From Hydrogenophilaceae bacterium (GTDB taxonomy: Bacteria > Pseudomonadota > Gammaproteobacteria > Burkholderiales > Thiobacillaceae), in assembly GCA_013389025.1 (NCBI GenBank), contig JACAED010000102.1, positions 1-59,116 of the forward strand: a stretch of 59,116 nucleotides of DNA, read 5' to 3'. The number at the start of each line of letters is the position of its first letter. The first letter of the stretch is position 1. The position numbers and the translations under genes are program-made. Under the pieces are notes generated by a model. The model was not told the DNA's origin. It was given only the letters and a program-made list of their open reading frames with translations, and made no database searches. Shown here in pieces: positions 18,663-21,046 of this stretch.

Positions 18663-18862
18663 TGACGCTGAGGCGCAAAGGCGCAGAGAAAAAGCGTGAG
18701 TGATTCTTTGGTGCTTAAGGGTTGGGTGTGGATCAGGGTGTTTGCATTCTACAAGCCCGGTAGCATTTCTCTTTTCCAGGGGGGAGAGATGTGAAAACCA
18801 CTTTCCTGAATGACAGAAGGGAGAACAAAACTGTTCCTCTGCGCCTTTGCGCCTCTGCGTCA
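18663..18862. repeat. Long-armed inverted repeat (family locus 2); right arm lies inside pbpC
   Basis: tgacgctgaggcgcaaaggcgcagagaaa (18663-18691) versus gttcctctgcgcctttgcgcctctgcgtca (18833-18862). Confidence 0.85.
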
Positions 18863-21046
18863 GGTTTTATCGCCTGCCTGGTGAGTGCTACCGCAGCCCA
18901 TGCCCTGCCCAGTTTCGACATGGTCAAGTCACAGTACCAGGTTTCCGAAGCCTGGCTGCTGGACCGGAATGGAGAGCGGCTGCACACGCTGCGCCTCGAT
19001 CACACCGTGCGCCGGTTGCCCTGGATCAAGCTCGACGCGCTTTCGCCCGCCATGCAGGAGGCGCTCATCGCATCCGAGGACAAGCGCTTTTACGAACACG
19101 GCGGCGTGGACTGGAAGGCGACGCTGGGCGCGGTGTGGGATCGTCTGCTGACCGACAGCAACCGCGGCGCCTCAACCTTGTCGATGCAGTTGGCCGCCCA
19201 GCTTGATCCAAAACTTGCCCGTGGCGCGGACGGGCGCAGCTACGCGCAAAAATGGAACCAGATGCGGGCCGCGCGCGAACTGGAAACATCCTGGAGCAAA
19301 CCGCAGATCCTGGAGGCCTATCTCAACACCGTGCAGTTTCGCAGCGAGCTTTCCGGTATCAATGCCGCAAGCTGGGGACTGTTCCAGAAGCATCCTTCCG
19401 GATTGAACAAGGCAGAATCGAGTCTTCTTTCCGCGCTGCTGCGCGGACCCAACGCCACACCGGACAAGGTTGCTGAACGCGCCTGCGATGTGGCCAGTAA
19501 GCTTTCACCGCCACGCCCGGACTGCAAAACCATCACCGCATTGGCGTGGTCAACCCTGGTGGTCAAACCGCGCATTCCATTCCAAAACCAGATCGCGCCG
19601 CACCTTGCCCGGCGCTTGTTGAGGCAGCCCGGACAGATCGTCAAAACCAGTCTCGATGCGAACCTTCAGCGCCTTGCCCTGCGCACGCTGCAACAGCAGC
19701 TTGCCGAACTGAAAGACCGCCAGGTGGAAGACGGCGCGGTCATCGTGCTCGACAACAAAACCGGCGAGATTCTCGCCTATGTGGGTTCCAGCCAGACCAC
19801 GTCGGATACGCCCGAAGTCGATGCCGTGCGCGCGCCGCGTCTGGCCGGCTCCACGCTCAAGCCGTTCCTGTATGCGCTGGCCATCGAGCGCCAGACCCTG
19901 ACCGCCGCCTCGCTGCTCGACGACTCGCCGCTGTCGGTGGAAACCGCGGGTGGCCAGTACCTGCCGCAGAACTACGACCGCGATTTCAAGGGCTGGGTGT
20001 CGATGAGAACCGCGCTGGGTTCCTCGCTCAACGTACCCGCCGTTCGCACGCTCGTGCTGTTGGGATACGAACCCTTTTACGACCAGTTGAAAAAGCTTGG
20101 ATTCTCGACCCTGACGCGCGATGCCGATTACTATGGCTACTCGCTCGCGCTGGGCGGCGCGGAAGTCACCCTGCTTGAACTGACCAATGCCTACCGCGCA
20201 CTTGCCAATGGCGGCATGCTTACATGGGTCTCTCCTCTCTCCTCACGGGAGGCCGCTCTTAACGCCCCTCTCCCCTCGTGGGAGAGGGGTTGGGGAGAGG
20301 GGGCTGGAAATCATCGCAAGCGCGTCATGTCTGCTGCCACCGCCTGGATCATCGGCGATATCCTGTCCGACCGCGAGGCCCGCGCGCTGACCTTCGGCCT
20401 GGACAACGCGCTTTCCACATCCGGCTGGTCCGCCGTCAAGACCGGCACCAGCAAGGACATGCGCGACAACTGGTGCGTGGGCTACTCGGATCGCTACACC
20501 GTCGGCGTGTGGATCGGCAATGCCTCCGGCGAGCCGATGCACGATGTCTCCGGCGTGACCGGCGCCGCGCCGGTGTGGCAGGCCATCATGAATCATCTGC
20601 ATGCAAAACAAGCCGGCCGCGCGCTCAAACCGCCAGCCGGCATCACGCTGCAAACCGTCCGCTTTGACCCGGCCATCGAGCCGCCGCGCAGGGAAGCCTT
20701 CCTCAAGGGGACGGAAATGACGCAGGTCAGTCTGCCGGAAGCTGGCATCGCCCAGCCACGCATCATCGGCCCCGGCCATGGCGCCATGCTGGCACTCGAC
20801 CCTGATATTCCAGAAACACACCAGATCGTTCATTTCAGAGCCAGGCCATCTCGCCCCGGCCTGAAATGGAAGGTGGACGGCAAGGACGCACAACAGGCCG
20901 ATCAGGGTTGGCGCTGGCCCCCTTCCGCCGGAGTTCATACCATCCAGCTGCTGGATGAGCACGACAGGTTGCTGGACGAAACCAGACTGACCGTGCGTGG
21001 CAAACCGAACATCGCAAGCTCAAATGGATCGCCAGACACTCCGTGA
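18791..21046 (+). CDS. pbpC: Penicillin-binding protein 1C (GTG start)
   Basis: Glycosyltransferase motif EDKRFYEHGGVDWKA; transpeptidase LAGSTLKPFLY, SLNVPAV, KTGTSKDMRDNWCVGYS. Confidence 0.93.
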   Translation: MKTTFLNDRRENKTVPLRLCASASGFIACLVSATAAHALPSFDMVKSQYQVSEAWLLDRNGERLHTLRLDHTVRRLPWIKLDALSPAMQEALIASEDKRFYEHGGVDWKATLGAVWDRLLTDSNRGASTLSMQLAAQLDPKLARGADGRSYAQKWNQMRAARELETSWSKPQILEAYLNTVQFRSELSGINAASWGLFQKHPSGLNKAESSLLSALLRGPNATPDKVAERACDVASKLSPPRPDCKTITALAWSTLVVKPRIPFQNQIAPHLARRLLRQPGQIVKTSLDANLQRLALRTLQQQLAELKDRQVEDGAVIVLDNKTGEILAYVGSSQTTSDTPEVDAVRAPRLAGSTLKPFLYALAIERQTLTAASLLDDSPLSVETAGGQYLPQNYDRDFKGWVSMRTALGSSLNVPAVRTLVLLGYEPFYDQLKKLGFSTLTRDADYYGYSLALGGAEVTLLELTNAYRALANGGMLTWVSPLSSREAALNAPLPSWERGWGEGAGNHRKRVMSAATAWIIGDILSDREARALTFGLDNALSTSGWSAVKTGTSKDMRDNWCVGYSDRYTVGVWIGNASGEPMHDVSGVTGAAPVWQAIMNHLHAKQAGRALKPPAGITLQTVRFDPAIEPPRREAFLKGTEMTQVSLPEAGIAQPRIIGPGHGAMLALDPDIPETHQIVHFRARPSRPGLKWKVDGKDAQQADQGWRWPPSAGVHTIQLLDEHDRLLDETRLTVRGKPNIASSNGSPDTP
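20232..20303. repeat. Palindromic pyrimidine/purine-rich repeat inserted in frame in pbpC
   Basis: CCCCTCTCCC-ctcgt-GGGAGAGGGG perfect 10-bp stem (20265-20289) followed by ttggggagaggggg. Confidence 0.8.

Follow-up and report, generated by a model that had tools for sequence, protein, structure and literature searches.

In-frame palindromic repeats in PBP1C and other conserved proteins of a Thiobacillaceae genome and their association with DUF559 nuclease genes

A perfect DNA hairpin lies within the coding sequence of a penicillin-binding protein and the reading frame stays open, which raises the question of what this palindrome is and how a conserved enzyme came to carry it. The window, the whole stretch of DNA that was analysed, comprised 59,116 nucleotides of contig JACAED010000102.1 from a Hydrogenophilaceae bacterium. 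The hairpin was read directly on the forward strand at 20265..20289. It consists of a 10-bp stem and a loop, CCCCTCTCCC-CTCGT-GGGAGAGGGG, with the arms at 20265-20274 and 20280-20289 and the loop at 20275-20279, and it is translated in frame within APLPSWERG. The G-rich tail TTGGGGAGAGGGGG follows on the same strand at 20290..20303 and is translated in frame within GWGEG. An earlier note, made without database searches, had described a perfect hairpin with a ctcgt loop in pbpC and had quoted the residues LTWVSPLSSREAALNAPLPSWERGWGEGAGNHRKRV. Both were correct. Its placement of the palindrome in frame within the transpeptidase domain and its view of the sequence as a dispersed repeat also held, as shown below. 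The note was made without a view of TrpC and Uup as further hosts, or of the DUF559 nuclease.

The host gene was assigned using Pfam, alignment and codon positions. pbpC occupies 18791..21046 on the forward strand and encodes penicillin-binding protein 1C (PBP1C) of 751 amino acids. The open reading frame was uninterrupted across the repeat, with no frame break, and its product matched Transgly, Transpeptidase and BiPBP_C, all exceeding the Pfam cut-offs. The motifs S354xxK357, S412xN414 and K550TG552 were unchanged throughout a 42-row orthologue alignment. When pbpC was compared with the orthologue of the sister species, the difference was 0.41 at third codon positions and 0.16 and 0.11 at the others. 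Since the third positions were the most divergent, this was the pattern of purifying selection expected of a working gene. The insert lies in a variable loop at residues 477-509, between SxN and KTG (20219..20317, forward strand), where the loops of the orthologues were dissimilar and mostly shorter. The AlphaFold pLDDT was 52-71 at residues 481-510, and the adjoining blocks reached 93 and 97, placing the insert in a poorly modelled loop between well-modelled blocks. Within the transpeptidase domain, the model and the orthologue alignment thus predicted a loop that varies and lies at the surface. Separately, a 32-nt inverted repeat, 91% complementary, was observed at 18663-18694 and 18831-18862 (TGACGCTGAGGCGCAAAGGCGCAGAG... 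/ ...CTCTGCGCCTTTGCGCCTCTGCGTCA, 136 nt apart). It covers the gap 5' of pbpC and extends into the annotated N-terminus. The real start of pbpC may possibly lie further downstream than annotated.

The repeat region itself was compared with shuffled sequence. The 37-base hairpin-tail pattern matched once in the window and in none of 100 dinucleotide shuffles. When the consensus unit was inverted and aligned locally, a tentative second copy, inverted and decayed, was suggested at about 20231..20264 on the reverse strand. An equal score was reached in 1 of 2000 shuffles, this being the best among five comparisons, so the window copy is possibly a dimer, that is, a decayed inverted pair. Neither GTAG nor CGTC, nor the complement of either, was present in 20224-20312 of the window, and Rfam gave only sub-threshold chance matches on the repeat region. 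We rejected the idea that the repeat is purpose-built to be free of stops in every frame, because on average 4.93 of its six frames were open and 4.87 were expected from shuffles. Composition alone explained the stop-free reading. This meant that survival in frame looked like selection acting on a neutral passenger. At the protein level, EAALNAPLPSWER would be the predicted tryptic peptide diagnostic of the insert.

The family to which this copy belongs was identified in the window's own genome (G000, a Thiobacillaceae draft of 1.84 Mb, 75% complete) by reading the stretches around pattern matches. A 29-base pattern gave 23 matches and a reversed control pattern gave 0. These corresponded to about 21 distinct places with otherwise unrelated flanks, and the dispersed character of the repeat was thereby confirmed. 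The form of the family was CCCTCTCCC-n5-GGGAGAGGG-TTGGGG(A/T)GAGGG, a unit of ~38 nt with a C/T-rich hairpin of 23-25 nt. The type of G-rich tail seen in the window was shared by further copies in G000 and by the repeats that flank DUF559 genes. Eight of the ~21 copies were in frame within three conserved proteins and 13 lay outside. TrpC had five of the eight, spread over two loops, Uup (an ABC-F ATPase) had two and PBP1C had one. Solved homologous structures indicated that the TrpC and Uup inserts fall between conserved blocks. TrpC of this genome (L160:2196-3359, contig C3) had 388 amino acids compared to the usual ~275, and its domain match was broken into three pieces. These results showed that a dispersed, REP-like palindrome family is present, with copies in frame.

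We then compared filled and empty sites among relatives. Uup was the cleanest case. The eight further genomes of the genus all had 75 nt between the anchors and G000 had 207 nt, and the gain of 132 nt, exactly 44 codons, reads as a head-to-head pair of repeats. In TrpC, the loop was empty, with 15 codons, in most of the sequences read. Repeat-derived inserts of differing lengths were present in G000, G113, G110, G106, G080 and G024, the one in G080 (L197) being a solo copy of 36 nt, and different repeat classes filled one TrpC loop in the sister species G000 and G113. In the radical-SAM protein YgiQ (L300, L301, L302, L304, L305 and L308 among the loci), the hypervariable loop after HPDPYA remained in frame at 33 of 33 loci. 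It was either empty, occupied by a solo repeat of either class, or occupied by a DUF559 unit. It was empty in G009, which is the nearest relative of G007 at this locus (92-93% YgiQ identity). Insertion relative to empty sites was thus shown in Uup, TrpC and YgiQ. A consistent target-site duplication was not established: the inserts in loop 1 of TrpC bear F on both sides and the other copies share none. The F...F arrangement was merely suggestive of such a duplication.

The PBP1C site was less simple. The PBP1C loop of the sister species, Thiobacillus sp. QR_Bin.5 (contig JADFDC010000042.1, which is also the G113 contig), carried a variant hairpin, CCCTCCCCC-TTGAG-GGGGGAGGG, at a distance to the following conserved residues equal to that in G000. 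The stem differed between the two species by change on both sides. No hairpin was found in aligned orthologues more distant than QR_Bin.5. The earlier note had held that its reading would be refuted by the same residues, without repeat character, in orthologues of distant taxa. This was not met among the aligned orthologues, where repeat-like residues occurred only in the sister species, as the variant hairpin. The simplest reading was a shared, older insertion whose stem was later altered, and independent insertions were not excluded. The exact ends of the insert could not be fixed because the sole close relative, G113, was also filled.

The first clue to a partner was an entire DUF559 domain within the TrpC insert of G110. 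DUF559 is a Vsr-like PD-(D/E)XK domain (PMC12907096), and its relative in the PDB was 3hrl (E = 3e-28). In the nine genomes of the genus, 9 to 25 pattern matches were found in the five with DUF559 and 0 to 4 in the four without it. Across 117 genomes of the family, the median number of repeat matches was 11 with DUF559 and 1 without (p = 2.6e-12), and a genus-stratified permutation gave p = 2e-4, which is the floor of that test. Three genomes had at least 8 class-A matches yet no full-length DUF559 match (G036, G076 and G080). The genomes are mostly drafts.

Most of the DUF559 genes examined stood between two inverted copies of the hairpin. Of 35 DUF559 loci of the family, 28 had a class-A hairpin on each side at a distance of no more than 250 bp, compared with 0 of 12 Y1_Tnp loci and 1 of 25 TrpC loci. 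In a generic hairpin search, 22 of 32 DUF559 loci of the family had a hairpin on each side, as did 16 of 25 DUF559 loci in the class but outside the family, 0 of 8 Y1_Tnp loci and 0 of 21 pbpC loci. Paired hairpins were 0.81 alike within one locus and 0.67 across loci, a difference reached in 0 of 5000 permutations. Such matching within a locus would, by analogy, be that of terminal inverted repeats. In G000, its own DUF559 locus (L208) lies between two inverted palindromes, and the window copy was equal to these at 33 of 37 and 33 of 39 positions. We showed flanking by hairpins and co-occurrence with repeats. The link remained an association, and no movement, cutting or binding was seen. Whether DUF559 homes horizontally between species received no clear answer from the identities of host and DUF559, which were 0.80-0.94 and 0.67-0.88 for YgiQ, and 0.71 and 0.79 for TrpC.

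Palindromes of different sequence were associated with different DUF559 proteins. Class B, CCCCCTTT...AAAGGGGG, is distinct from class A. It was predicted that genomes with DUF559 but poor in class A would carry class B, and this held for most of 20 further DUF559 loci, which were mostly weaker matches. In the DUF559 tree, 17 of 18 class-B loci fell in one clade (SH-aLRT 99), and 0 of 500 shuffles were equally clustered. The tree beyond this clade was uncertain because the protein is short. The second DUF559 of G113 (L214) was an outlier flanked by the palindrome CCCCCCTTGATAAAGGGGGG-TTGGGGGGATTT, a type of this second class (CCCCCTTGATAAAGGGGG...GGGGGGATTT) that was also found in the TrpC loop of G113 (L171:541-1560) and in two YgiQ loops. 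The unusual palindromes (L285, L291, L293 and class B) each flanked their own DUF559. These results showed that palindrome class pairs with DUF559 clade. As a separate observation, the DUF559 gene at L206 (contig C91 of G110) lies between identical 38-nt palindromes of a third kind, CGGATCGGGGTGCAATCCGATCCG..., on both sides, and these adjoin ordinary class-A remnants.

Complete units were also found inside proteins. Full hairpin-DUF559-hairpin units occupied the YgiQ loop in frame in six genomes (G007, G013, G049, G106, G051 and G001), and such in-frame units were also present in TrpC of two genera (G110, L181/L211, and G010, L231) and in CobT of G027. In an MmeI-like restriction-methylation enzyme (G004, L234), a DUF559 unit was in frame between the methyltransferase and target-recognition parts. 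Seven composite proteins were scanned with Pfam (four YgiQ, one TrpC, one CobT and one MmeI-like), and host domains flanked DUF559. PF04480 matched with E values of 1e-37 to 1e-41, over the curated cut-off, and REase_MTES_1575 matched too. Pfam reported no Hint/intein splicing domain in the seven proteins. The inserted DUF559 copies retained the D...ExDGGQH region.

We consider it likely that the repeats are the REP-like ends of a DUF559 element, spread by its nuclease and tolerated in protein loops, with mobilisation by DUF559 being inferred. In this proposal, the window insert would be a single copy of a mobile, REP-like palindrome, or possibly two inverted copies that have decayed. The palindromes would be the terminal repeats of a DUF559-encoding element with the order hairpin-tail-DUF559-tail-hairpin, and solo and paired palindromes would be non-autonomous derivatives moved by the DUF559 nuclease. 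The putative route is that DUF559 cuts the hairpin or DNA close to it, and that a copy is then made as the break is repaired. Genic insertions would survive if they add only whole codons, the frame is free of stops and the site is a tolerant surface loop, which in PBP1C would be the one that separates SxN from KTG. Binding, cutting and moving of palindromes by DUF559 are inferred, as is the route, and there are no biochemical data. Since the nuclease has no known joining domain, it would have to rely on host functions or on a further enzyme. A bolder reading is that, across proteobacteria, DUF559 genes with matched palindromic ends form a widespread type of mobile element that has so far gone unrecognised, in which REP-like families consist of solo ends and the whole unit can live unspliced in conserved enzymes as an internal domain. 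We would not favour this claim, taken as a whole, over its negation, nor the reverse.

The main rival explanation is that these are ordinary REPs spread by other means, and that DUF559 genes home into REP-rich sites, with the repeats as their targets. In its favour, some insertion sequences target REP elements (PMC1525189), YgiQ-type loops carry either solo repeats or DUF559 units depending on the genome, as if the repeats came first, and DUF559 copies from one host site cluster together across genera. However, insertion of this kind would split a repeat, yet complete inverted hairpins stand on both sides and are matched within the locus. In addition, repeat number increases with DUF559 and unusual palindromes flank their own DUF559. 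We regard homing as unlikely, although it was not excluded.

A second rival is that the repeats are REPs spread by RAYT, a Y1 tyrosine transposase, as in Escherichia and Pseudomonas. RAYT-like Y1_Tnp genes were present in 80 of 117 family genomes, and the size and hairpin form of the repeats are REP-like. However, Y1_Tnp was not detected in G000 (75% complete) or G113 (96% complete), both of which bear repeats. None of 12 Y1_Tnp loci of the genus had repeats, the window copy lacks GTAG, and the relation of Y1_Tnp to repeat number was not significant over 117 genomes (p = 0.17). RAYT was therefore rejected as the partner, given the absence of flanking repeats and of a significant correlation, and this explanation seems very improbable. 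We give as little weight to a third, that the inserts are retained for a benefit to the host enzymes, for example as linkers or regulatory mRNA hairpins. The sister PBP1Cs both carry the hairpin at an equal distance to conserved residues with a two-sided change of the stem, and TrpC loops were filled repeatedly, as this rival would have it. However, the loops are hypervariable, the class in the TrpC loop differs between G000 and G113, and most relatives have no inserts. The weakest rival, a proline/glycine-rich variable loop with a repeat look by chance or local slippage, was all but excluded: the PBP1C loop does differ in length and sequence among orthologues and the repeat is no more stop-free than expected from its composition (4.93 and 4.87 of six frames open), but the 37-base pattern has a chance expectation of 0 in the window and recurs across the genome, and in Uup this repeat was inserted where the orthologues are empty.

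The reading of the repeats as ends of a DUF559 element, if correct, bears on REP families without RAYT, whose cause has so far been open, by naming a candidate nuclease with a testable cognate pairing. It also means that mobile DNA can lengthen conserved enzymes, in the extreme by an entire nuclease domain, and leave the frame intact, and these elements account for recurrent odd proline/glycine-rich insertions (PSPxxGEGxGEG) in such enzymes. In-frame REPs were already known in Rickettsia and others. The partnership with DUF559 appears to be new, a provisional judgement based on open-access literature only. A link between DUF559 and palindromes was not found in the open-access literature searched, and subscription journals were outside the search; one open-access paper naming DUF559 reports that recombination hotspots in Legionella include transposase/DUF559 segments.

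Among known systems, the palindromic elements of Rickettsia (RPEs) are in-frame palindromes in genes (Ogata et al. 2000, 2002, per review PMC10969869). The earlier note had compared the repeat with them, and the comparison held for behaviour, since both systems place palindromes in frame inside unrelated conserved genes (here PBP1C, TrpC and Uup). However, it failed for membership: RPEs are ~150 bp with another sequence and other hosts, whereas the unit here is ~38 nt, has no CGTC tag and is associated with DUF559. GTAG REPs and REPtrons, which are RAYT-associated (PMC3733652, PMC2817692), are similar in being short dispersed hairpins, solo or paired, beside a dedicated nuclease gene, with a minority within ORFs. 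However, GTAG is missing from the window copy, and DUF559 takes the place of the Y1 tyrosine transposase as the associated gene. CGTC REPs, too, are palindromes inside genes without RAYT, and have been described as families that "apparently lack a dedicated transposase" (PMC3733652). In contrast, the window copy is without CGTC and a candidate partner, DUF559, is named here. Intragenic REPs have been listed for several species, including Thioalkalivibrio and Thauera (PMC3733652). Intein homing endonuclease genes resemble the composites in that a nuclease is in frame in a conserved host protein and its presence varies among relatives, but the composites here have no Pfam splicing domain and are flanked by dispersed palindromes. 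Caulobacter VsrA, a DUF559/Vsr-like endonuclease, is described as working with a cytosine methyltransferase (PMC12907096). VsrA and the solved structure 3hrl share their domain with the DUF559 proteins here. In contrast to VsrA, the DUF559 genes here lie between palindromes, sometimes within other proteins.
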